DNA from: Desulfomicrobium sp.
GTDB taxonomy: Bacteria; Desulfobacterota; Desulfovibrionia; Desulfovibrionales; Desulfomicrobiaceae
Reading direction: 5' to 3'
NCBI GenBank assembly: GCA_024709365.1
Contig: JANJWV010000116.1
Location: 1-41,582 of the forward strand
Length of the DNA stretch: 41,582 nucleotides
Positions 21,129-40,568 of the stretch are shown here, piece after piece; positions within the stretch are counted from its first letter, which is position 1, and each line of letters begins with the position of its first letter. The position numbers and the translations under genes are program-made. The notes under the pieces were generated by a model, which searched no databases, had not been told where the DNA came from, and was given only the letters and a program-made list of their open reading frames with translations.

Positions 21129-22178
21129 TCAGTATGCAAAGGGGTACAGCTTCCAGTAGGCCTTGGTCAGCCGCCACTTGCGGGCCAGGCCTTCGGGTTC
21201 GAAGATGAGGAAGAGCACCAGCATCAGCCCGAAGACCCCTTCCTTCATGGGCACGATGACGGCGCTCAGGTCCGGGGCGATGCCCCCCAGGGACGAAATG
21301 AGCAGGTTCAGCATTTCCGGCAGTAGGGTGATGAAGGCGGCCCCGAAGATGGAGCCGATGACGGAACCCATGCCGCCGATGATGATCATGGCCAGGTAGC
21401 TGATGGACAGCCCCATGGAGAACTGCTCGGGGGTGATGTACATGGTGTAGTGCGACCACAGCCCGCCCGCGACGCCGGCCAGGAAGGAACTCAGGCCAAA
21501 GGCCTGCAGCTTGTAGGCGAAGAGGTTCACGCCGACGTTCTCGGCCGACTGGTGGTAGTCGCGGATGGCCACGAAGGCGCGGCCGTGGCGGGTGCGGCTG
21601 ACGTTGGTCACGGCCAGGACGCACAGGGCCGTCACGGCCAGGATGAGGTAGAAGATGCGCGCGTCGGTGTCGAAGGCGAAGCCCAGGATCTGCGGCGGGT
21701 CCACGGGCAGGCCGTTGGCCCCGCCCGTCAGGGAGGACGCGTGCAGAAAGACGTATTCGAGGATGAGCTGGGCGGCCAGGGTCGAGATGGCCAGGTAGAT
21801 GCCCTTGAGGCGCAGGGACGGGATGCCGAAGACCATGCCGACCATAGCCGATATGGCCCCGCCGCCCAGGAGCGCGGCGACGAAGGGCGCGCCTGCGTTG
21901 GACAGGATGGCCGCGCCGTAGGCGCCCACGCCCACGAAGGCCCCGTGGCCCAGGGACATCTGCCCGCACATGCCCGTCAGCAGGTTCAGGGACACGGCGC
22001 CGATGACGGCGATGAGGATGAGGTTCAGGATGGACACGGCGTAGGAGTCCACCAGCTGGGGCAGCGCCAGCATGGCCGCGAGGAAGAGGCCCAGGCAGAG
22101 CTTCTGGAACCGCGAGCGGAACAGGCCGTCCTCGGCGGCGTAGGTCGTGTAGAAGAGGCCGCACTTGTGCATGCTCAT
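21129..22178 (-). CDS. Inner-membrane permease LivM-like
   Basis: A 349-residue permease with about ten hydrophobic helices. Recognisable parts are LTGMCGQMSLGHGAFVGVGAYGAA, GIYLAISTLAAQLILEYVF and MIIIGGMGSVIGSIFGAAFITLLPEML, all typical of LivM. ATG at 22178 overlaps the TGA of livH by four bases (ATGA) and is therefore preferred over the second ATG at 22172. With LivH it forms the channel of the transporter. Confidence 0.92.
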   Translation of the reverse strand: MSMHKCGLFYTTYAAEDGLFRSRFQKLCLGLFLAAMLALPQLVDSYAVSILNLILIAVIGAVSLNLLTGMCGQMSLGHGAFVGVGAYGAAILSNAGAPFVAALLGGGAISAMVGMVFGIPSLRLKGIYLAISTLAAQLILEYVFLHASSLTGGANGLPVDPPQILGFAFDTDARIFYLILAVTALCVLAVTNVSRTRHGRAFVAIRDYHQSAENVGVNLFAYKLQAFGLSSFLAGVAGGLWSHYTMYITPEQFSMGLSISYLAMIIIGGMGSVIGSIFGAAFITLLPEMLNLLISSLGGIAPDLSAVIVPMKEGVFGLMLVLFLIFEPEGLARKWRLTKAYWKLYPFAY

Positions 22179-23062
22179 ACGCGTTCGATCTCCTTGGTTC
22201 CGAAAAGTCCGTAGGGCTTGACCATGAGGATGACGACCAGGATCAGGAAGGAGGCCACCTCCTTGAACCCGCCCAGGCCCAGGAGGTCCTTGGCCGCGCC
22301 TTCGCAGATGTTCTCCAGCACCCCGATGATGAGGCCGCCCAGGGCAGCGCCCAGCAGACTGTCCAGGCCGCCCAGGATCACGGCCGGGAAGACCTTGAGG
22401 CCCAGGTGCCCGAGCTGGGCGTTGATGCCGTTGATGTTGCCGAGGATGATGCCGCCGATGCTCGAAACCACGGCCGCGATGCACCAGGACAGGGCGAAGA
22501 TGGACTTGATGCCGATGCCCATGGACTGGGCCGCCTGCTGGTCGAAGGCCGTGGCGCGCATGGCTATGCCCAGCGACGAGAACTTGAAGAACAGGCTGAA
22601 GACCCCGAAGAGCAGCGCCGAGAGCCCGAAGGCCGCGACGTAGACCGGCGCGATGGGCAGGCCCAGCAGCATGAAGGGCTCCTGGGGCAGGATGGCCGGG
22701 AAGACCTGGATCTGCGTGCCCCAGACCATCTGCACGAAGGACTTGAGCATGGACGACAGGCCGATGGTGACCATGACGACCGAGATGATGGGCTCGCCGA
22801 TGAGCGGCCTGAGGATCAGGCGCTCCACGGCCGTGGCCAGGACGATGGAGAAGGCCAGGGTCAGCAGGAAGGAGGCCAGGAAGGGAAGCTGGAACTGCAC
22901 CGTCAGGGCGAAGCAGACGTAGGCCCCGACCATGACCAGTTCGCCTTGGGCGAAGTTCACGACCTTGGTGGCCTTGAAGATGATGACAAATCCCAGGGCC
23001 ACCAGGCTATAGATGGATCCGACCACGAGGCCGTTGATGATGAGCTGGAGATAGTATTCCAT
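22175..23062 (-). CDS. Inner-membrane permease LivH-like
   Basis: A 295-residue permease, the usual LivH length, with about eight helices. Typical sequence: GLVVGSIYSLVALGFVIIFKATKVVNFAQGELVMVGAYV, MRATAFDQQAAQSMGI and NAQLGHLGLKVFPAVILGGLDSLLGAALGGLIIGVLE. It starts ten bases after the ligase gene and overlaps livM, so the permease genes are translated together. Confidence 0.94.
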   Translation of the reverse strand: MEYYLQLIINGLVVGSIYSLVALGFVIIFKATKVVNFAQGELVMVGAYVCFALTVQFQLPFLASFLLTLAFSIVLATAVERLILRPLIGEPIISVVMVTIGLSSMLKSFVQMVWGTQIQVFPAILPQEPFMLLGLPIAPVYVAAFGLSALLFGVFSLFFKFSSLGIAMRATAFDQQAAQSMGIGIKSIFALSWCIAAVVSSIGGIILGNINGINAQLGHLGLKVFPAVILGGLDSLLGAALGGLIIGVLENICEGAAKDLLGLGGFKEVASFLILVVILMVKPYGLFGTKEIERV

Positions 23063-23072
23063 ATGCCGTTCC

Positions 23073-24968
23073 TCACGCGCGTCCGACGTCGCGGATGCAG
23101 ATGCTGCCCGTCATCTCGCGGCGGGAGCCGTCCTGGTAGGTGATGGCGATGCACAGGTCCGTGGCGTCCGTGCCGTCGTACAGCGCCGCGATGAGTTCGG
23201 CGTAGCGCTCGCCGATGACCTTGCGCCGGATCTTTCTGGTGCGGGTCAGCTCGCCGTCGTCGGCGTCGAGTTCCTTGAAGAGCAGGGCGAAGCGCCGCAC
23301 CTCGGTGCCGGGCTGCAGGGCCTGGTTGATGCCCCGGATTTCGGCCTCGATGAGGTCGTAGAGCTCGGGCCTGGACGCCAGGTCCTGGTAGGTGGTGTAG
23401 GTCAGGCCCTTGGCCTCGGCCCAGCGGCCGGCGATGTCGCCGTCCAGGCAGACGACGGCCGCGATGAAGTCCCGCCCGTGGCCGAGGACCACGGCCTCCT
23501 GCACGTAGGTCGAGAACTTGATCTTGTTCTCGATGAACTGCGGCGAGAAACGCACGCCCGCGGCCGTGGTCATGACGTCGGACAGGCGGTCGATGATGAC
23601 CAGCTGGCCGTTGTCCTTGAAATACCCTGCGTCGCCCGAATGCAGCCAGCCGTCGGTCACCGTCTCGGCCGTGGCCGCGTCGTTGCCCAGGTAGCCCTGG
23701 AACACGGCGGGGCTCCTGGACAGGATTTCGCCCTCTTCCGAGATGCGGATCTCGGTCTCGGAGATGGGTTCGCCCACGGTGTCGAAGCTGACGGCGCCGT
23801 CGCGGTGGATGCAGGAGATGCCGGCGATCTCGGTCTGGCCGTAGATCTGCTTCAGGTTCACGCCGAGGGCGTGGAAGAAGGTGAAGGTGTCGGGCCCCAG
23901 GGGCGCGCCGCCCGTGGAGGCCGAGCGCACGCGCGTGAAGCCCAGGCGGTCGCGCAGGGCGCGAAACAGGCCCCAGTCGGCCAGCCTGTTCGCCAGCCGC
24001 AGGCCCATGGACGGGGTCTCGCCGCGCAGCACGGCCCCGGCGTACCTCATGCCCACGGGCATGCAGAGGTTGAAGAGGAAACGCTTGAAGCGCGTGGTCT
24101 CCATGATGCGCACCCGCACCTTGGCGGCCATGTTCTCCCACACGCGCGGCGGCGAGAAGATGAGATGCGGCCCGATCTCGCGGATGTTTTCCTGCACGGT
24201 GTCGGGCTCCTCGGGGAAGTTGACGCAGAAGCCGAACAGCAGGGCCGAGGACACGGCCATCATCTGCTCGCCCATCCAGGCCAGGGGCAGGAAGGACACG
24301 AACTCGTCGGTCTCGCGCTTGGGGTCCGACAGGCCCAGGTTCCAGGCCATGGACAGGAGGTTCCTGTGCGAGAGCATGGCCAGCTTGGGCCGGCCCGTGG
24401 AGCCCGAGGTGGTGGCGATCAGCGCCGTGTCGTCGGGCGAGACGGCGTCGACCCAGGCCTCGAACTCGCTCGCCCGGTCGCGGCCCAGGGCGCGCACGTC
24501 GTCGAAGCTCTTGAGGCCCGGCGCGTCGTAGCCCACGAGGCCCTTGGGGTCGTGGTAGACGATGTGCTCAAGCAGCGGCAGGCTGCCCCGGATGGACAGG
24601 ATCTTGTCGACCTGCTCCTGGTCCTCGGCCACGACCAGGCGCGCCCCCGACAGCTCGAAGACGTAGCCGATCTCCTCGCCGGGCGAGTCCTGGTAGAGGC
24701 CCAGGGACACGCCGCCCAGGCCCTGGATGGCCAGTTGGGCCCACAGCCACTCGGGGCGGTTGTCGCCGATGATGACGACGACGTCGCCGCGGCCCAGGCC
24801 CAGGGCCCTCAGGCCTGCTGCGAACTCGGCCGTGATGTCCAGGTACTGCCTGTAGGTGAAGGGCTGCCAGATGCCGTAGCTCTTCTCGCGCAGGGCCGTG
24901 CGGCCGGGACGTCGGCGGCAGTTGTCGAGGAGGAGTCTGGGGAGGGTGGTTTCGTACGGCGCGCTCAT
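23073..24968 (-). CDS. AMP-forming long-chain-type acyl-CoA synthetase
   Basis: A 631-residue adenylate-forming ligase. The phosphate loop is ATTSGSTGRPKLAML, the core motif is YGQTEIAGISC and the hinge is SGDAGYFKDNGQLVIIDRLSDVMTT, with KIRRKVIGERYAELI at the C-terminus carrying the catalytic Lys region. By length and pattern it belongs with the bacterial long-chain fatty-acid synthetases, but in Liv/PaaK clusters the substrate may be another carboxylate. It is inserted between livG and livH with no gap on one side (24969/24968) and ten bases on the other, so its product is part of the same pathway. Confidence 0.9.
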   Translation of the reverse strand: MSAPYETTLPRLLLDNCRRRPGRTALREKSYGIWQPFTYRQYLDITAEFAAGLRALGLGRGDVVVIIGDNRPEWLWAQLAIQGLGGVSLGLYQDSPGEEIGYVFELSGARLVVAEDQEQVDKILSIRGSLPLLEHIVYHDPKGLVGYDAPGLKSFDDVRALGRDRASEFEAWVDAVSPDDTALIATTSGSTGRPKLAMLSHRNLLSMAWNLGLSDPKRETDEFVSFLPLAWMGEQMMAVSSALLFGFCVNFPEEPDTVQENIREIGPHLIFSPPRVWENMAAKVRVRIMETTRFKRFLFNLCMPVGMRYAGAVLRGETPSMGLRLANRLADWGLFRALRDRLGFTRVRSASTGGAPLGPDTFTFFHALGVNLKQIYGQTEIAGISCIHRDGAVSFDTVGEPISETEIRISEEGEILSRSPAVFQGYLGNDAATAETVTDGWLHSGDAGYFKDNGQLVIIDRLSDVMTTAAGVRFSPQFIENKIKFSTYVQEAVVLGHGRDFIAAVVCLDGDIAGRWAEAKGLTYTTYQDLASRPELYDLIEAEIRGINQALQPGTEVRRFALLFKELDADDGELTRTRKIRRKVIGERYAELIAALYDGTDATDLCIAITYQDGSRREMTGSICIRDVGRA

Positions 24969-25763
24969 CTATCTTCCCTTGTAGAGGCCGTCCTCGTCGC
25001 CGAGGTAGGCGCTGACGACCTTGGGGTTGGTCTGGACGGCCTGGGGCGTGCCGCTGGCCAGGACCCGGCCGAAGTCGAGGACGATGACGTGGTCCGAGAT
25101 GTCCATGACCACGCCCATGTCGTGTTCGACCAGAAAGACGGTCACGCCCCACTCCTCGTTGATGTCGAGGATGGAGCGGGCCATGTCCTCGGTCTCCTCC
25201 AGGTTCATGCCGGCCATGGGCTCGTCCAGCAGCAGGAGCTGCGGCTCGGCGGCCAGGGCCCGGCCCAGCTCGACCTTCTTCTGCACGCCGTAGGGCAGGT
25301 GCCCGGCGATGGTATGGCGGTAGGGCGAGAGGTTCAGGAAATCGATGATCTCCTCCACGCGCCGGCGGTGGCGCGTCTCTTCCCGGCGGGCTTTGCCCAG
25401 GTAGAGGATGGAGGCCAGCAGTCCGTAGCCCAGGCGCGAGTGGCGGCCGACCATGAGGTTGTCCAGGACCGACAGGCCGCGGAACAGGGCGATGTTCTGG
25501 AAGGTCCTGGCCAGGCCGAAGCCCGTGCGCTTGTGGGCCGGCACGCCGGTCAGCTCTCGGCCGTCCATGCTGATTTTGCCCTTGGTCGGGGTGTAGCGGC
25601 CCGAGATGCAGTTGAGCATGCTCGTCTTGCCCGCGCCGTTGGGCCCGATGAGAGAGGTGATGCTGCCCTTGTCCACGCGGCAGGTGACCCTGGACAGGGC
25701 GGCCACGTTCTTGAAGGTCAGGCTGACCTCCTGCACGTCGAGCAGGGGGCTACTGCCATTCAT
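24969..25763 (-). CDS. ABC transporter ATPase LivG-like
   Basis: A 264-residue ATPase partner of LivF. Walker A GPNGAGKTS, Q-loop in ARTFQNIALF, signature YGVQKKVELGRAL (a diverged form of the usual LSGGQ-type sequence, common in this subgroup), Walker B LLLLDEPMAGMN and H-loop VEHDMGVVM. Its start overlaps the CBS-ACT gene by 14 bases. Together with LivF it energises transport. Confidence 0.93.
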   Translation of the reverse strand: MNGSSPLLDVQEVSLTFKNVAALSRVTCRVDKGSITSLIGPNGAGKTSMLNCISGRYTPTKGKISMDGRELTGVPAHKRTGFGLARTFQNIALFRGLSVLDNLMVGRHSRLGYGLLASILYLGKARREETRHRRRVEEIIDFLNLSPYRHTIAGHLPYGVQKKVELGRALAAEPQLLLLDEPMAGMNLEETEDMARSILDINEEWGVTVFLVEHDMGVVMDISDHVIVLDFGRVLASGTPQAVQTNPKVVSAYLGDEDGLYKGR

Positions 25764-26403
25764 GCTTGAAATCCTCGGGGCCGACCACGTCGTACCCGGC
25801 CTTCTGCAGCGCCGCCGCGATGGACGAGGGGTTGGGCGTGTCCACGCGGATGACGACCATGCGGCGGTCGGCGTGGGTGAAGGTGCCGGTGGAGATGATG
25901 GAGTAGCCGAGGGCGTCGATGATGCCCGCGACCTCCTTCAGCACGCCGGGCCGGTCCACGACCTCGAAGACGATGCGCGAGCCGCCCTGGCCGTAGCCCA
26001 TCTCCTCGGCCAGCACCTCCAGCATGATGGTGCGGTTTATGTAGCCGATGAGGTCGCCCTCGGCGTCGACCACGGCCAGTCCGGCCAGGTTCTTGGCGTG
26101 CATGAGCATGGCCGCGGCCTCGATCTCGGTCTCGGGCGTGACGGTGACGATGTCCTTGCGCATGATGCGTCCCACGGTCAGCTTGGACAGCAGGTAGTTG
26201 ATCTCGTGCTTGTCCAGGCCGGTCATGAGGGAGGGCATGGCCGCGTTGATGTCCTCGGGGCGCACGTATCCGGCAAGCTTTCCGTCCCTGACCACGAACA
26301 GCATCCAGAGTTGCTGCTCGTCCATGACCCGCTGGGCGTCCTCGGCCAGGGCGTCGGGGGGCATACTGATGAAATTCTTGAGCATCTTGAGCCCGACAAA
26401 CAT
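25750..26403 (-). CDS. CBS-pair and ACT-domain regulatory protein
   Basis: A 217-residue protein with a CBS pair (about 8-135; VTVTPETEIEAAAMLMHAKNLAGLAVVDAEGDLIGYI) followed by an ACT domain (about 145-215; IVFEVVDRPGVLKEVAGIIDALGYSIIST). CBS pairs bind adenine nucleotides or SAM and ACT domains bind amino acids or similar ligands, so this is probably a sensor that tunes transport or ligase activity. It is the first gene of the transporter/ligase unit. AAGGAG lies seven bases before the ATG. AcuB-like proteins with the same domains are relatives. Confidence 0.88.
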   Translation of the reverse strand: MFVGLKMLKNFISMPPDALAEDAQRVMDEQQLWMLFVVRDGKLAGYVRPEDINAAMPSLMTGLDKHEINYLLSKLTVGRIMRKDIVTVTPETEIEAAAMLMHAKNLAGLAVVDAEGDLIGYINRTIMLEVLAEEMGYGQGGSRIVFEVVDRPGVLKEVAGIIDALGYSIISTGTFTHADRRMVVIRVDTPNPSSIAAALQKAGYDVVGPEDFKHEWQ

Positions 26404-33789: not shown

Positions 33790-35505
33790 TTACCCTTCCA
33801 CGGAGCGTTTGGGCAGCAGGATGGTCATGGTCGTACCCTCGTTCAGCTTGGTCTTGACCTGAATCTCGCCGCCCAGTCGTTTGACGATGCCGTAGGTGAT
33901 GGACATGCCCAGCCCCGTTCCTTTTTCCTTCTTTGTGGTGAAGAACGGCTCGAACATGTTCTTGGCGGTCTCTTCGGACATGCCGCAGCCGTTGTCCTGG
34001 ACCGAAACCCCGATGAAATCCTCGCTCTCGTCCCACGACCTGATGACGATCTGCCCGCCGTCGGGCACCGCCGCCAGGGCGTTGTTCAGAATGTTCAGGA
34101 AGACCTGCTGGATCTGGCCGTGATCCGTGGGGATCTGCGGGAGGTTGTGGGCCAGCTCTCGTTTGAGCTCGACATTGCGGTACTGCGCCTCGCGTTCCAG
34201 GAAGCCCAGCGTCTCCACCAGGACCGTGTTCACGTCCAGGACCTCGATCTTGACGTCCATGCGCTTGGCGAAGCTGAGCATGCGGTGCGTGATGCCCCGG
34301 CAGCGGTCCACGGAGCGCAGGATGGCCTCGATCTGACGTCCGAACTTGTCCTTGTCCGGGAAGTCCGGGCGCAGGTTCATGATGTCGCGCATGAGCCCGG
34401 CCTTCTCGTTGATGATGGCCAGGGGGTTGTTGATCTCGTGGGCCACGCCTGCCGCCAGGCGTCCGATGGAGGACAGCTTCTGGGAGTGCTCCATCTGGTG
34501 GATGGCGCCCATGCGCTGCTCGTCGCTCTCCTGCAGCCGCGAGATCAGCAGGCTCGTCACTCTGTAGACGGCCAGGAAAATGAGGATGACGCTCGAGACG
34601 AAGATGAAGAGCAGATCCAGGCGCACCGTGTACCACGTGCTGAAGGCCGTGGGCTTGGGCTTCACGGCGACCAGGGCGAAGTCCGTGTTGGCGATGAAGG
34701 CCGAGGCGATGAAGTTGTCCTGTCCTTTCTGGTCCCGGATCGACTGGACGTTCGATTCGAATCCGGTCGACGGCAGATCGAAGGGCAGGATGTCGAGCAC
34801 CTTGCCGTAGCGGCGTGATTCCGTCTGGAGGATGCCGCTTCGGTTGACCAGGAATGCGTCGCTGCCCGGCTCCAGTCCCATGGCCGAAATGATGCGGTCG
34901 AAGTGCATGGTGTCGAGGGTGGCCCGGAGAATCCAGGACCGGCCGCTTTCCGTGGTGTGCCGCACGGCGATGACCACGTGGGGGAACTTGCGGAAGCCCA
35001 GGAACACGTCGCTGACGTAGGTGCCCTTGAACTGGACCTGGTGGAACCAGGGCTGTTCGGTGTAGTTGCGGCCCTTGAGGTCGTACGGGCCGGCATAGCT
35101 GAGCTGGTTGCCGGCGACGTCGATGAGGCCGAGGTCCACGAAACCGGTGAACTCCCTGCGCATGACCTGGAAGATGCGCTGCAGGTTGGCGTCGTCGGAC
35201 AGTTCGTCGAAGGAGTAGGCCGAGGCGATGAAGCTCACTGCCGAGGTGCGCTCGGCCAGGAACAGCTCGAAGGAGTGCTTGGCCTTGCCCACCAGCGCCC
35301 GCAGGGGGGCCTGGATCTCGGCCGCCATGGTGTTCTGGTGCTCGTAGTAGTTGAGCCCGGCCAGGGACAGCAGGGGAATCAGGGTGACCAGCGCCATGAG
35401 CGAGACGATCTTGCGCCGCAGGAGATTGTATCGCCTGGGCGAATTGATGTCCGTGCCGATGTCGGCCTTGATGATGTTGATGGGTGCGGACAGGATGCTC
35501 TTCAT
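33790..35505 (-). CDS. Membrane sensor histidine kinase with dCache domain
   Basis: A 571-residue inner-membrane kinase. Transmembrane helices at about 33-53 and 297-319 enclose a roughly 240-residue periplasmic part (AYSFDELSDDANLQRIF, VDLGLIDVAGNQLSYAGPYDLKGRNYTEQPWF) typical of dCache ligand-binding domains. In the cytoplasm a HisKA domain has H356 in GVAHEINNPLAIINEKAG and a HATPase domain has ILNNALAAVPDGG, DNGCGMSEE and GTGLGMSI. It is the only member of the operon able to sense an external signal. ATG at 35505 overlaps the NifX-like stop by four bases and has GGGGAG in front. Confidence 0.93.
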   Translation of the reverse strand: MKSILSAPINIIKADIGTDINSPRRYNLLRRKIVSLMALVTLIPLLSLAGLNYYEHQNTMAAEIQAPLRALVGKAKHSFELFLAERTSAVSFIASAYSFDELSDDANLQRIFQVMRREFTGFVDLGLIDVAGNQLSYAGPYDLKGRNYTEQPWFHQVQFKGTYVSDVFLGFRKFPHVVIAVRHTTESGRSWILRATLDTMHFDRIISAMGLEPGSDAFLVNRSGILQTESRRYGKVLDILPFDLPSTGFESNVQSIRDQKGQDNFIASAFIANTDFALVAVKPKPTAFSTWYTVRLDLLFIFVSSVILIFLAVYRVTSLLISRLQESDEQRMGAIHQMEHSQKLSSIGRLAAGVAHEINNPLAIINEKAGLMRDIMNLRPDFPDKDKFGRQIEAILRSVDRCRGITHRMLSFAKRMDVKIEVLDVNTVLVETLGFLEREAQYRNVELKRELAHNLPQIPTDHGQIQQVFLNILNNALAAVPDGGQIVIRSWDESEDFIGVSVQDNGCGMSEETAKNMFEPFFTTKKEKGTGLGMSITYGIVKRLGGEIQVKTKLNEGTTMTILLPKRSVEG

Positions 35506-35855
35506 GCGGACTCCCCGGCCCGGTCGAAAAGAATGTCCCCCGCCTTGAGCTCGCCTGCGGCCAGACGTGGGATGACGCGCTCCAGGGGACCCATGACCGA
35601 GTCGATCACTTCGATGCGTTTCCAGCGCAGATAGTGGAAGTACTCGTCCTCGATCCCTCCGCAGACGATGGTCCCGACATCCCTGGACAGGGCCAGGTCG
35701 CACAGTTCGTCCCCGGAGGCGTCGGCCAGCAGGAAGGACTTCCTCTGGACGATTTCCCCACTCTCCGAAATGGACAATAGCAGGGCTTCCTTGGTCAGGT
35801 CAAAGCGTGGGGCGACTTCGTCCCTGGCGATGGCGATGAGCACTCTTCGTTCCAC
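35502..35855 (-). CDS. NifX/NifB-fold small protein
   Basis: A 117-residue protein of the small cofactor-binding fold: RRVLIAIARDEVAPRFDLTKEALLL at the start (strand-loop with PRFD), ELCDLALSRDVGTIVCGGIEDEYF in the centre and VIDSVMGPLERVIPRLAAGELKAGDILF at the end. It resembles the 2923 protein in the central VGT-I-CG segment and the GPLERV/GDLERV element. It overlaps the dCache kinase gene by four bases and follows the AAA+ protein by two, so it is tightly tied to the signalling proteins. Metal-cluster binding is possible, not shown. Confidence 0.78.
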   Translation of the reverse strand: MERRVLIAIARDEVAPRFDLTKEALLLSISESGEIVQRKSFLLADASGDELCDLALSRDVGTIVCGGIEDEYFHYLRWKRIEVIDSVMGPLERVIPRLAAGELKAGDILFDRAGESA

Positions 35856-35857
35856 TG

Positions 35858-37090
35858 CTAGTTCCCTTCCGCGCTCTTGCGCGGGGCCTTGCGGGCCTTT
35901 TCTGCCGGACGTGGGGCCGGTCCGGTGCCGGCGAGATCCACCAGATGGCCGGGGAGATGGCCGGTCCGGATGGTGTCCCCGGGGCAGACCATGGCCGCAA
36001 ATTCCATGATGTTCCTGAGTTCGCGGACGTTGCCCGGGAAGTCGTGTTCGCTGACGATGCGCAGGGCCCTGGGGCTGATGCCGGTTATCTGTTTCTTGAA
36101 GCGGGCGGCGTACTGCGACATGAAATGGTGCAGCAGGAAGCCCAGGTCCTCGCCGCGGTCCTTGAGTCGCGGAAGGTGCAGGCGGATGGCCGAGATGCGG
36201 TGGAAGAGGTCCTCGCGCAGACGCCCCTCCCGCACGAGCCTTTCCGGCGACTCCGCCGTGGAGACCATGAGCCGGGCGTTGACCCGCACGGGTTTGGTCG
36301 CCCCCACGGGCAGCACGGTCCCTTCGTCCAGGAACTGCACCAGCCTGCTCTGATGCGGCAGGGGCAGGTCCGCGATCTCGGAGAGGTAGAGCGTGCCGCC
36401 GTGGGCCTGCTGGAAGCGGCCGGGCTTGAGTTCCCCTTCTGCCGCCTGGATCCGCCCGAAGAGCTCCGCGTCCAGCAGTTCCGAGGGCATGGGGCCGCAG
36501 CTGAAACGGATGAAGGGTTCGCGGGACCTGTGGGAGGCCTTGTGCACGGATTCGGCCAGGAGATCCTTGCCCGTGCCGGTTTCCCCGGTGATGAGCACCG
36601 GGGAGTCATGCTGCGCGATGACCGGCACGAGGTTCAGGATTTTCTGCATGGCCTGGCTGCGGCCGATGATCTGGCCCTGGCCCGTGGCCTGGGACAGGCG
36701 GGACTCGATTTCGCGCAGGGCGGTCAGGTCCTCGACGATGTCCAGAATGCAGACCGGCCTGTTTTCGCCGTCCCGGACGCGCACTGGGGTGATGCGCACC
36801 GGGATCTTGCGGTGGTGCCGGTTGATGCAGTCGGTTTCGATGCCCTTGTCCGGCCCGTCCTCGCGCCCGTGGGGGCAGCCCTGGATGCAGGCGCGGCTGC
36901 GCAGGACATGCCTGCACGGCAGGCCGCGCACCTCGTCCCGGCTGTAGCCGGTGAGCGCTTCCAGGGCCTTGTTGAGCATGAGAATCCGCCCGCCGCCGTC
37001 CAGCAAGGCCACGCCCATGGGCAGGCCGTCGAGGAGGGACGGCAGGTCCGGACACTCGCCGCGGACCAGATCTTCGATGCGTTTCAGCAC
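35858..37090 (-). CDS. Degenerate sigma54-activator-like AAA+ protein with four-cysteine PAS
   Basis: A 410-residue protein. The PAS domain (about 15-130) has C59, C68, C72 and C88, the same C-x8-C-x3-C-x15-C spacing as in the 1420 activator. Walker A GETGTGKD (169-176) is intact, but the sigma54-contacting GAFTGA loop is gone (FGRIQAAEGELKPGRF at 211-226), the Walker B Asp is Ser (LYLSEI, 234-239), and the C-terminus after about 385 is a Pro/Lys-rich tail without a Fis helix-turn-helix. Arginine-finger region LREDLFHRIS is kept. It can hardly activate sigma54 in the normal way and more likely acts as a nucleotide-dependent switch or inhibitor. It sits inside a sigma54-promoted operon next to a NifX-like gene. 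Confidence 0.9.
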   Translation of the reverse strand: MLKRIEDLVRGECPDLPSLLDGLPMGVALLDGGGRILMLNKALEALTGYSRDEVRGLPCRHVLRSRACIQGCPHGREDGPDKGIETDCINRHHRKIPVRITPVRVRDGENRPVCILDIVEDLTALREIESRLSQATGQGQIIGRSQAMQKILNLVPVIAQHDSPVLITGETGTGKDLLAESVHKASHRSREPFIRFSCGPMPSELLDAELFGRIQAAEGELKPGRFQQAHGGTLYLSEIADLPLPHQSRLVQFLDEGTVLPVGATKPVRVNARLMVSTAESPERLVREGRLREDLFHRISAIRLHLPRLKDRGEDLGFLLHHFMSQYAARFKKQITGISPRALRIVSEHDFPGNVRELRNIMEFAAMVCPGDTIRTGHLPGHLVDLAGTGPAPRPAEKARKAPRKSAEGN

Positions 37091-37102: not shown

Positions 37103-37522
37103 CTAGTGCGCGCCGCCCCCGACGATGCCGGATGCGGCAAAGCAGAGCACGAGGACTTCCAGCAGGGAGATGATGGCATAGGCCATGTCCTTCTTCTTCA
37201 GGTAGGCGAAGATGACCGGAATGTAGCAGACGATGGTCAGGCCGCCCAGCAGCGCGATGCCGAGGAAGTTCAGGAAGTCGCCCTTGTTCAGGAGGGTCGC
37301 CCAGCCCCAACCGGTCGGCACGTTGTTCTGGGTCAGGTATTCGCCCACGGGCTGGGACCAGAACTTGGTCACCAGGTCCATGGAGACGTAAGGGTCCATG
37401 ATGCCGGTGACGTACAGGGCGTACGTCACGATCATGAGGGCCAGGCCGCTCCAACACCCGTAGAAGAGGATGTTGGCGTAGGCGATCTGTTCGGCCGGGG
37501 CGTTGGTATCGGGTCTGTTCAT
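37103..37522 (-). CDS. Small integral membrane protein (DUF1634-like) paired with TauE
   Basis: A 139-residue protein with three hydrophobic segments (about 17-40, 82-103 and 112-132), the first preceded by AEQIAYANILFYGCWSGLALMIVTYALYVTG. The pattern resembles DUF1634 membrane proteins, which often lie beside TauE/SafE exporters. It starts 25 bases after tauE with GGAGAAC and is probably an accessory subunit. The family call is from pattern only. Confidence 0.65.
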   Translation of the reverse strand: MNRPDTNAPAEQIAYANILFYGCWSGLALMIVTYALYVTGIMDPYVSMDLVTKFWSQPVGEYLTQNNVPTGWGWATLLNKGDFLNFLGIALLGGLTIVCYIPVIFAYLKKKDMAYAIISLLEVLVLCFAASGIVGGGAH

Positions 37523-37547: not shown

Positions 37548-38534
37548 TTAGAAGCCGAGGCCCTTGGCCAGTGCCTTGCCGCCCGCGAAGAGCAGGACGC
37601 CGATGACCATGTAGCGGATGAAGGCCGGCTTGGCCTTGGCCAGCAGGCGCACGCCCACGAAGGAGCCCATCATCAGGCCGATGATGGAGGGGATGGCCAT
37701 GAGGGGGATGACGCAGCCCTGGTTCAGGTAGACCCAGGCGGCGGAGGTGTCGGTGATGGACAGCAGGAACTTGCTGGTGCCGACGGCGACCTTCAGCGGC
37801 GCGCCCATGAGCAGGTTCAGGACCGGGACGTTGGCCCAGCCGGCGCCGAGGCCGAACATGCCGGCCATGATGCCGATGATGATGAAGAGCAGCAGGCCCG
37901 GCAGGGTGCGGTGGGTCTTCCACTCGACGACCTCGCCGTTGGCTTCCAGGTATGCGCCCTGGATGCCCAGAGCCAGGCCCAGGGCGTCCTGCTTGGTGAC
38001 CACGGGACGGGCCGTGTTCTTGGAGGTCAGCAGGAGGATGGCGATGCCCATGATGGTGCCGCCCAGGCAGATCTGGACCACGTTGCCCGGCAGGGCCAGG
38101 CCCAGGAAGGCGCCGACGATGGCGCAGCTGGAGGCGATGAGCGCCACGGGCAGGGCCAGACGAAGGCTTGCGAGGTTGCGCTTCAGGAGACCAGGTCCGG
38201 CGGCCAGGGCTCCGGCCAGGGCGACGAGCAGGCCCGCGCCGCGCACGAAGTCGAGGTGGAAGGGGAAAAACCCGCTGACCAGGGGCACGAAGAGCACGCC
38301 GCCGCCGACACCGGCCAGTACGGCGATGATGCCGAGCACGAAGCAGAAGAAGAGCAGGATCGTCGGCCATGCCCACCACGGCATGGAGGACGGGGCTCCC
38401 GTCGCTTCGGCCATCTGTTTGGCCGCTTCATTGGCGATATCGGTGTTGTTGTCGGCCCAGGCCAGAGTTGCCAACAGGAGCGCGGCCAGTCCGACCCCTC
38501 CCAGAATTCGCATCCACGTTTTGTTCAGTTTCAT
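37548..38534 (-). CDS. Sulfite exporter TauE/SafE-family permease
   Basis: A 328-residue membrane protein. The first helix (MRILGGVGLAALLLATLAWA) may be a signal or anchor, followed by about 35 periplasmic residues and then eight to nine helices with the family motifs GVGGGVLFVPLV and GLGAGWANVPVLNLLMGAPLKVAVGTSK. TauE/SafE proteins export sulfite, sulfoacetate or other small anions; in a sulfate reducer a sulfur anion is a likely but unproven cargo. It is longer than the usual 250-270 residues because of the N-terminal part. ATG 38534 follows GACAGG; a sigma54 promoter lies 84 bases upstream. It heads the ten-gene unit. Confidence 0.9.
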   Translation of the reverse strand: MKLNKTWMRILGGVGLAALLLATLAWADNNTDIANEAAKQMAEATGAPSSMPWWAWPTILLFFCFVLGIIAVLAGVGGGVLFVPLVSGFFPFHLDFVRGAGLLVALAGALAAGPGLLKRNLASLRLALPVALIASSCAIVGAFLGLALPGNVVQICLGGTIMGIAILLLTSKNTARPVVTKQDALGLALGIQGAYLEANGEVVEWKTHRTLPGLLLFIIIGIMAGMFGLGAGWANVPVLNLLMGAPLKVAVGTSKFLLSITDTSAAWVYLNQGCVIPLMAIPSIIGLMMGSFVGVRLLAKAKPAFIRYMVIGVLLFAGGKALAKGLGF

Positions 38535-38617: not shown

Positions 38618-38632
38618 GCAAGGAGCATGCCA
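38618..38632 (-). promoter_or_regulatory. Sigma54 promoter of the tauE operon
   Basis: Minus strand TGGCATGctccTTGC matches TGGCACG-N4-TTGC with one mismatch. GG (-24) is at 38631-38630 and GC (-12) at 38619-38618, exactly ten bases between. Start would be near 38606, leaving a 72-base leader before the ATG at 38534. An activator gene is divergent to it and matching palindromes lie upstream. Confidence 0.8.
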
Positions 38633-38684
38633 TTCGGGAACTGGCGGTATTTGCGCATTGACGAGGTGTCGGCCAAGGAGTAAT

Positions 38685-38717
38685 CGGCAAGAAATTGCCG
38701 CATCGGCAAGATTGTGC
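38685..38717. promoter_or_regulatory. Palindromic activator site CGGCAA-N4-TTGCCG plus a half-site
   Basis: CGGCAAGAAATTGCCG (38685-38700) is a perfect 6-bp-arm palindrome with a 4-base centre. A second, partial one follows at 38704-38717 (CGGCAAGATTGTGCC pattern). They lie about 85-105 bp upstream of the tauE start point, the usual place for sigma54 activator binding, and in the leader of the divergent activator gene. Confidence 0.65.
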
Positions 38718-38802
38718 CTTTTTTCTCAAAAAGGCGGTGCGACAGAGATTCCTTCGGGTGGTCGCTTCTCGAACCGCTCCAGCAAGGACAAGGAAAGTAT
38801 TG

Positions 38803-39882
38803 ATGTCGAAAAATCGAGGTGTTGGCTCAGAATCCAGCCTCCGCGAGCATCCGGTTTCCCCCGGCAGGAAATTGCCGAACGCTGCCGGCGAGCTCGAGGC
38901 GGAGATCCTCGAACTCGGGACCGAGGAGGGGCTTGGCAAGTTCGTGATCCAGTCGCGGGCCATGCGCGATCTCTATCGCCTGGCCATGCAGGTGGCCGGA
39001 TCAGATGCCACCATCCTGGTCTACGGCGAGTCCGGCACGGGCAAGGAGCTTTTCGCCCGCCTCGTGCACCAGCTCTCGGGCCGTCGCACCAGACCGTTCA
39101 TCCCCGTCAACTGCGGCGTGCTCAAGGGGGAGCTGTTCGCCGACAAGTTCTTCGGCCACGAGGCCGGGGCCTTCACCGGGGCCCAGCGGCAGCGTAAGGG
39201 CAGCTTCGAGATGGCCGCCGACGGGACGCTGTTTCTGGACGAAGTCGGCGAGATTCCGCCCACCAACCAGGTCGATTTCCTGCGCGTGCTGGAAGAAAAG
39301 ACCTTTCGTCGCCTGGGCGGGGAGAGGACGCTGCCCTTCGACGCGCGCATCGTGGCCGCCACCAACCGCGTGCTGCACAAGATGGTCTCGGCCGGCGAGT
39401 TCCGGGCCGACCTCTACTACCGCCTGAACGTCATCCCCGTGACCCTGCCCCCCCTGCGCGAACGATCCGACGACATCCCGCCCCTGGCCGAGTACTTCCT
39501 GGCCATGTACCGCCACCGCTACCACAAACCCGACATCCGCCTCGCCCCGGCCACCCTGGCCACCCTGTGCAAGTACTCCTGGCCCGGCAACGTCCGCGAA
39601 CTCAGGAACCTCATGGAGCGTCTGGTGCTCCTGACTGCCGACAACGTTATCGAGCCGGGGCACCTGCCCCTGGAAATGCGCATCGCCACGGGCCTGCCCG
39701 CCGTGGAGTGCGGCCAGGGCGTCATGACCCTGGAGGCGGCCGTGCGCCAGGCCGAGGTGGCCGCCATCGTACGCGCCTGGGCCGAGGCCGGGGGCAGCAA
39801 GGCGAGATTGGCCGAGATCCTGGCCGTCAGCCCACGCACCCTGCGCTACAAGCTGGCCGAGTACGAACTCAAGCTGAACTGA
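38803..39882 (+). CDS. Sigma54-dependent activator without sensory domain
   Basis: A 359-residue enhancer-binding protein with only a 45-residue N-terminal part, no receiver or PAS. AAA+ domain: Walker A GESGTGKE (75-82), intact GAFTGA (122-127), Walker B GTLFLDEVGE, arginine fingers in FRADLYYRLN. A Fis-type helix-turn-helix (GGSKARLAEILAVSPRTLRYKLAEYEL) ends it. ATG 38803 is chosen for AGGAAAG; the longer frame from 38695 covers the palindromic control DNA. Divergent from the tauE operon and next to its sigma54 promoter, it is the probable activator, controlled by level or by a partner protein, perhaps the degenerate AAA+ protein of that operon. Confidence 0.92.
   Translation: MSKNRGVGSESSLREHPVSPGRKLPNAAGELEAEILELGTEEGLGKFVIQSRAMRDLYRLAMQVAGSDATILVYGESGTGKELFARLVHQLSGRRTRPFIPVNCGVLKGELFADKFFGHEAGAFTGAQRQRKGSFEMAADGTLFLDEVGEIPPTNQVDFLRVLEEKTFRRLGGERTLPFDARIVAATNRVLHKMVSAGEFRADLYYRLNVIPVTLPPLRERSDDIPPLAEYFLAMYRHRYHKPDIRLAPATLATLCKYSWPGNVRELRNLMERLVLLTADNVIEPGHLPLEMRIATGLPAVECGQGVMTLEAAVRQAEVAAIVRAWAEAGGSKARLAEILAVSPRTLRYKLAEYELKLN
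38862..38877. promoter_or_regulatory. Third palindromic site, inside the activator gene
   Basis: CGGCAGGAAATTGCCG differs from the perfect site at one base. It lies in the first codons of the activator gene (residues 20-25), about 264 bp from the tauE start point, which is still within reach for a looping activator. Confidence 0.45.
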
Positions 39883-39973: not shown

Positions 39974-39989
39974 CGGCAATTTTTTGCCG
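39974..39989. promoter_or_regulatory. Fourth palindromic site CGGCAA-N4-TTGCCG
   Basis: A second perfect copy, CGGCAATTTTTTGCCG, lies just after the activator gene, with another CGGCAA half at 39962-39967. The gene beyond is convergent, so no promoter is obvious here. It may belong to a remote target or serve as an activator-binding decoy. Confidence 0.5.
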
Positions 39990-40049: not shown

Positions 40050-40568
40050 TCATTTTCCGCCCCATGTCTCCCGGTGCACAAGCTCCGGCCGGAAGCGGTC
40101 CAGGGCCTCGAAGGGTGTTTCGGGCCAGCCCACGGGGATGAGGGAGAAGGGGAGGATGTGGTCGGGGAGTCCGAAGAGCCTGCGGAAACCGTCCATGCGG
40201 TCCTGCTCCGGGAAGATGCCGACCCATACGGTTCCGAGCCCCAGGTCGCGGGCGGCCAGGAGCATGTTCTGGGTGGCGGCGCTCAGGTCCTGGACCCAGA
40301 AGGTCGGCCATTTTTTGCCGTCGGGGTCGCCGCAGGCGAGGATGGCCAAGGGGGCCTGGGCGACCATCTTGGCGTAGGGGTGGAAGGCGGGAATCGCTTC
40401 GAGCCGCGCCCTGTCCGTGATCACGACGAAGTGCCACGGCTGCTGGTTCCCGGCCGAGGGCGCGGCCATGCCGGCGCGGAGGATGGTTTCGATCATCACT
40501 TCGTCCACGGGCGTGTCGGTGTATTTGCGGATGCTGCGCCGCGTGTGGATTGCGTCGAGAAGTTCCAT
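40050..40568 (-). CDS. Nitroreductase-family FMN oxidoreductase
   Basis: A 172-residue flavoprotein, typical of the small nitroreductase/NfnB-like group. The N-terminal LLDAIHTRRSIRKYTDTPVDE and RAGMAAPSAGNQQPWHFVVI bind FMN phosphate; GTVWVGIFPEQDRMDGFRRLFGLP is the usual dimer and FMN part near the C-terminus. It could reduce nitro compounds, quinones or other acceptors with NAD(P)H; the native substrate is unknown. GGAG precedes the ATG; it stands alone between two terminator-like regions. Confidence 0.93.
   Translation of the reverse strand: MELLDAIHTRRSIRKYTDTPVDEVMIETILRAGMAAPSAGNQQPWHFVVITDRARLEAIPAFHPYAKMVAQAPLAILACGDPDGKKWPTFWVQDLSAATQNMLLAARDLGLGTVWVGIFPEQDRMDGFRRLFGLPDHILPFSLIPVGWPETPFEALDRFRPELVHRETWGGK

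Follow-up and report, generated by a model that had tools for sequence, protein, structure and literature searches.

In the window (the whole stretch of 41,582 nucleotides of Desulfomicrobium sp. DNA analyzed), the gene encoding an enhancer-binding protein (EBP) is divergent from an operon starting with the transporter gene tauE, and two tandem palindromes, S1 and S2, are located upstream of a sigma54-type promoter facing tauE. Our main reading, to which we assign a probability of about 0.9, is that this EBP, an orthologue of DVU2956 of Desulfovibrio vulgaris Hildenborough, activates the tauE promoter from S1 and S2. This reading is based on sequence features: the sites, their conservation, their fixed spacing from the promoter, the intact motifs of the activator, and the scarcity of sites elsewhere. 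The EBP would be a one-component regulator of the PspF type, with S1 and S2 serving as tandem sites for its dimers; as an AAA+ hexamer, it would remodel the sigma54 RNA polymerase at the promoter. In this Desulfomicrobium, tauE would thereby be switched on together with the genes for the DUF1634-like, PAS-AAA+, and histidine kinase proteins, and probably those for the receiver proteins that follow. The activator may also control its own expression via two further copies of the palindrome, S3 (which overlaps the start of its own coding sequence) and S4, and its activity may be controlled by the PAS-AAA+ protein encoded in the operon.

The original prediction that the activator and the palindrome form a pair driving tauE is favored by the constant promoter spacing, the concentration of perfect sites at the locus, and a published gel shift with DVU2956. 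Pairs of this kind are not new, however, the counterpart in D. vulgaris having already been tested; it is essentially a known pair, which is deeply conserved. Three other features, all conserved, look new: S3 in the activator reading frame, S4 on the 3′ side of the activator gene, and the seemingly disarmed PAS-AAA+ partner. Since the site-regulator pair is found order-wide and appears to have a single target, one protein and a 16-bp DNA suffice as a test.

The tauE promoter and the palindromes upstream

Scanning one genome per species for relatives of the activator yielded 77 loci, 37 of which were used; these are 50–88% identical to it and all (37/37) have a divergent tauE homologue beside the activator gene. 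The 40 remaining loci, mostly 32–50% identical, were taken to encode other EBPs and set aside, the tauE check covering the 37 loci used. The nearest named relative is that of an uncultured Desulfomicrobium (locus L016, 85% identity), and a blastn search against plasmids gave only generic AAA+ similarity. The counts below given over 38 loci refer to the 37 loci plus the window, and they are not independent, since the loci are related.

The -24/-12 promoter directed at tauE was found where it had been predicted, and nowhere else in the whole 41.6-kb window does TGGCNYN5TTGC match exactly; the element has GG at -24, GC at -12 and the standard spacing between them. The predicted tauE start follows from it, by counting 12 bases past the C of the -12 element. 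The offset between the promoter and S1 (taken in each locus as the site closest to tauE) is 67–70 bp in 38/38 loci, and the -24/-12 element gave the top score of 150 offsets in 37 of them. The best -24/-12 score averages 0.83 at the 67–70 offset vs 0.57–0.63 in the control bands. One point against the main reading is that many of the distant loci have TTGAT, TTGTT or TTGGA instead of TTGC as their -12 element. The genome carries a single rpoN copy (Sigma54_DBD, 204 bits).

Table 1. Positions in the window of the regulatory sites and genes discussed in the text
Feature	Position	Strand	Remarks
sigma54-type -24/-12 promoter TGGCATGCTCCTTGC	38618..38632	-	for tauE; predicted start 38606
S1, perfect palindrome CGGCAA-N4-TTGCCG, CGGCAAGAAATTGCCG	38685..38700		predicted main activator site; 0 mismatches
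S2, degenerate tandem copy, CGGCAAGATTGTGCCT	38704..38719		2 mismatches; left half CGGCAA intact
S3, one-mismatch copy, CGGCAGGAAATTGCCG	38862..38877		within activator frame, codons 20-25
S4, second perfect copy	39974..39989		91 bp past activator stop codon
Activator, 359 aa, AAA+ with GAFTGA and C-terminal Fis-type HTH	38803..39882	+	Pfam Sigma54_activat, HTH_8
tauE (TSUP family transporter)	37548..38534	-	first gene of target operon; Pfam TauE 4.9e-34
Small membrane protein resembling DUF1634	37103..37522	-	Pfam DUF1634 E 0.0004, below its cut-off
PAS-AAA+ protein, degenerate EBP relative	35858..37090	-	without GAFTGA or HTH
dCache histidine kinase	33790..35703	-	Pfam dCache_1, HisKA, HATPase_c

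The perfect palindrome expected about 85 bp upstream of the tauE start is present as S1, some 86 bp from the predicted start, and the partial copy expected to adjoin it is S2, located about two helical turns away. With up to two mismatches allowed, the palindrome has 10 matches in the window as compared with 3.29 expected, a number reached in 0/100 shuffles. The genome scan for CGGCAA-N4-TTGCCG which had been suggested gave only two perfect copies in 3.65 Mb, S1 beside the -24/-12 promoter and S4 on the 3′ side of the activator gene, while the reversed control pattern occurs once. A counterpart of S1 with 0–2 mismatches occurs at the same place in 37/37 related loci, S1 being chosen as the site nearest to tauE in each locus; two mismatches occur in 6/38 loci (L036, L046, L047, L049, L077, and L083). 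S2 was found in 37/38 loci (it is absent from L055), at +19 to +22 from S1 and with 0–4 mismatches, the mean over the 38 loci being 1.24 vs 6.4 in the control bands. Its left half is better kept than its right half, so that three half-sites are the strongest. The fact that the same architecture recurs in 37/37 related loci makes a chance origin untenable. In locus L025 (4839-5390), two copies of the site cluster are separated by about 372 bp, an arrangement resembling a tandem duplication of the intergenic region.

Both the perfect sites and the activator were searched for in 41 genomes. An orthologue of the activator is present in 17 of them (cut at ≥437 bits, the next protein scoring 281), and these 17 carry 36 perfect sites, 31 of which are at the activator locus (13 upstream, three at the gene start, and 15 past the 3′ end). 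This concentration looks like that of a single-target regulon. A wider regulon was rejected, since the five perfect sites located elsewhere compare with 15 matches to the reversed control pattern in the same genomes. The 24 genomes lacking the orthologue have 21 scattered perfect sites and eight matches to the control pattern.

The divergent activator and its D. vulgaris counterpart

The activator is composed of a Sigma54_activat domain, an AAA_lid domain, and a Fis-type HTH; no Pfam match was found before residue 47, and hence no recognised N-terminal sensor domain. The HTH_8 match and the location of the gene on the strand opposite to tauE bear out the description of a divergent activator with a Fis-type HTH. 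Sigma54_activat and HTH_8 are both present in 36/36 of the activators aligned (L049 and L055 were omitted), 35 of which carry GAFTGA and one GAYTGA. The scan of the window revealed no sigma70-type promoter for the activator gene.

PspF of Escherichia coli is likewise a minimal activator consisting of AAA+ and HTH domains, which is encoded divergently from its sigma54-dependent target and uses tandem upstream sites. Its activity depends on a partner whose gene belongs to the target operon. The control of PspF by PspA is mentioned by Kazakov (2015, PMC4641369). The present system resembles that of PspF in all these respects, including, as proposed here, the partner encoded in the target operon; it differs in the site and the target, and the proposed partner is a PAS-bearing AAA+ relative and not a protein of the PspA type.

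The closest parallel is that described by Kazakov (2015, PMC4641369), where DVU2956 is an EBP without an N-terminal domain, divergent from the operon DVU2957-DVU2964, and this operon includes a second EBP, DVU2960, having GAFPGA in place of GAFTGA. In the gel shifts reported there, the 370-bp upstream region was shifted by purified DVU2956 and not by DVU2960. According to the text and the legend to Fig. 4 of that article, wild-type and mutated versions of the predicted motif, which is composed of three conserved half-sites, were likewise tested with DVU2956. Such a motif is consistent with S1 followed by the left half of S2, and the letters of the palindrome probably agree with the D. vulgaris site. 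The link between the window locus and DVU2956 is provided by three Nitratidesulfovibrio-like loci (L047, L049, and L083), in which the in-operon protein carries GAFPGA, the form present in DVU2960. The activator in the window is thus a putative DVU2956 orthologue, identified on the basis of its architecture and the GAFPGA signature.

The two systems share a divergent EBP without an N-terminal domain but with GAFTGA and a Fis HTH, a sigma54-dependent operon assigned to transmembrane transport and containing a second, defective EBP, and a motif made of repeated half-sites. In the Nitratidesulfovibrio-like loci, it is the activating sites that extend over the start of the activator gene, and an HTH is retained in the in-operon EBP, whereas the window has a longer intergenic region, separate S3 and S4 sites, and an in-operon protein without any HTH.

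That the palindrome is bound by some other regulator, such as the in-operon PAS-AAA+ protein or another EBP, seems extremely improbable. Candidates are numerous in the genome (G000), since 27 matches were obtained there at E ≤ 1e-60, and the PAS-AAA+ gene does co-occur with the palindrome; but 31/33 of the PAS-AAA+ proteins aligned have no HTH, DVU2960 failed to bind in the published gel shift (PMC4641369), and the sites flank the activator gene and are concentrated there wherever the activator exists.

In a literature search with most subscription journals outside its reach, Kazakov (2015) was the only article found on DVU2960 or DVU2957, and nothing was found on sigma54, Desulfovibrio, enhancer binding, and TauE together. 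Searching with the letters of the site gave no relevant title among the matches listed. DVU2956 is described in a review as repressing or reducing biofilm formation by D. vulgaris (PMC8586430), an effect which bears on biocorrosion. Since the transporter operon is the sole target assigned to DVU2956 in Table 1 of Kazakov (2015, PMC4641369), candidates for the link with the biofilm are the transporter and, alternatively, the PAS protein with the kinase behind it.

Palindrome copies within and beyond the activator gene

The one-mismatch copy previously noted at 38862 does exist, but as it lies inside the activator coding sequence, it is outside the tauE promoter region. This copy, S3, more likely serves the activator itself than the tauE promoter, and its position at the beginning of the regulator's own gene would suit autorepression. 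An in-frame S3 was identified in 36/38 loci (28 perfect copies, six with one mismatch, and two with two mismatches) and is absent in L022 and L023. It is always in one reading frame, near a plausible start codon; the frame was a criterion of this count, and a separate scan detected no off-frame copy there. In the four loci of the Nitratidesulfovibrio-like type, S2 of the activating pair is what was counted as S3.

This single frame in all 36 loci having S3 is what would be expected if the sequence had been kept for a peptide, G-K/N-x-L-P, and not for DNA binding. The codon usage makes this explanation rather unlikely: at the leucine position, the codon is TTG in 34/36 loci (the other two having CTG and TTT), whereas TTG accounts for only 145 of the 1706 leucine codons elsewhere in the same genes, and although the copies were picked by their similarity to the palindrome, a lone change from TTG to CTG would still have been picked. 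Moreover, the middle residue varies (F, K, N, I, Y, L, S), whereas the half-sites do not. The conservation of S3 points to a constraint on the DNA.

S4, which was absent from the original prediction, follows the activator stop codon and precedes a nitroreductase gene of convergent orientation. A perfect copy occurs on the 3′ side of the activator gene in 15 of the 17 genomes carrying the orthologue, and the gene downstream is not constant, being an AhpC-like gene in L019, for example. In 11 loci, the surroundings of S4 showed no -24/-12 peak at a constant distance from it, and its possible role as the enhancer of a nearby sigma54 promoter was rejected on these grounds. A separate sigma54-dependent transcript driven from S4, such as a small RNA, also seems quite improbable: EBP-controlled small RNAs do adjoin EBP genes in D. 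vulgaris (PMC4641369, Table 1), but in addition to the lack of a peak, no exact promoter match occurs beside S4 in the window or in the related loci scanned. It is very improbable that S4, or S1 and S2 as RNA, are terminator or other RNA hairpins and not protein sites. S4 can fold into a 6-bp stem, followed by a T-run in L016, and a weak match to a terminator lies between S1 and S2; against this, most of the loci shown lack a T-run after S4, and it is the same 12 letters that return at S1, S2, S3, and S4, which a hairpin does not need. Judging from its position, S4 may assist looping or loading as an auxiliary site.

One further one-mismatch copy (40305-40320) lies within the nitroreductase gene. 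It was rejected as a fifth site: the one-mismatch copy found at the matching place in L017 is in the same nitroreductase gene, which fits coding conservation, and the copy in the window is probably a coding coincidence.

The PAS-AAA+ protein and the target operon

Of the 37 related loci, 35 encode both the small membrane protein and the PAS-AAA+ protein, the contigs ending first in the other two. The PAS-AAA+ protein was found in exactly the same 17 of the 41 genomes as the activator (≥440 bits, with the next matches at ≤355). The alignment comprises 33 members, after the omission of L018 (interrupted frame), L049 (contig end), L055 (N gap), and L041 and L077 (contigs without the gene). None of them (0/33) has GAFTGA, GAFPGA occurs in two, and HTH_8 is present in only two (L047 and L083) and missing from the window protein, while the Walker A lysine is invariant. 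The nearest relatives elsewhere, from 13 loci, have an HTH-like C-terminus, and GAFTGA is present in 12/12 of those in which the motif was read. The loss of the Walker B aspartate was rejected as proof of inactivity, since the intact relatives also lack it (T or A there, in the 12 of their 13 loci for which the motif was read); as it is missing in decayed and intact forms alike, only the loss of GAFTGA and of the HTH counts. The PAS-AAA+ protein has thus lost the sigma54-contact motif and, in nearly all cases, the DNA-binding domain, and is seemingly disarmed. It is possibly a built-in sensor or an anti-activator, and it provides a test case for the control of EBPs by inactive sensor-bearing relatives. 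In two cases, the frame of the in-operon protein is interrupted, by an early stop in L018 (2026-3231) and by one in-frame TGA in G011, which may reflect either a pseudogene or a sequencing error.

The operon in L158 has the order tauE, small membrane protein, PAS-EBP, histidine kinase, and receiver, as in the window except that an additional small gene precedes the kinase. Its PAS-EBP differs in that it keeps GAFTGA and the HTH, and the genome has no orthologue of the divergent activator. No copy of the palindrome with 0–1 mismatch was found in L158 or L156. Most simply, the divergent activator would have taken over, leaving the older activator with only its sensing and ring-forming parts. A more detailed version, which we propose tentatively and consider possible but doubtful, is that the tauE operon had its own PAS-AAA+-HTH activator, as in L158, which yielded DNA binding and sigma54 contact to the divergent minimal activator and its palindrome; the old activator would have decayed into a still ATP-binding PAS-AAA+ subunit joining or capping the new ring to convey a signal, and the auto-control loop would operate via S3 and S4.

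The true start of the histidine kinase is probably downstream of the mechanical ORF start, and proteins with receiver domains are encoded further along after it. Genes for branched-chain amino acid transport, an AMP-binding enzyme, and a CBS-ACT protein are present nearby on the minus strand (22175-26403).
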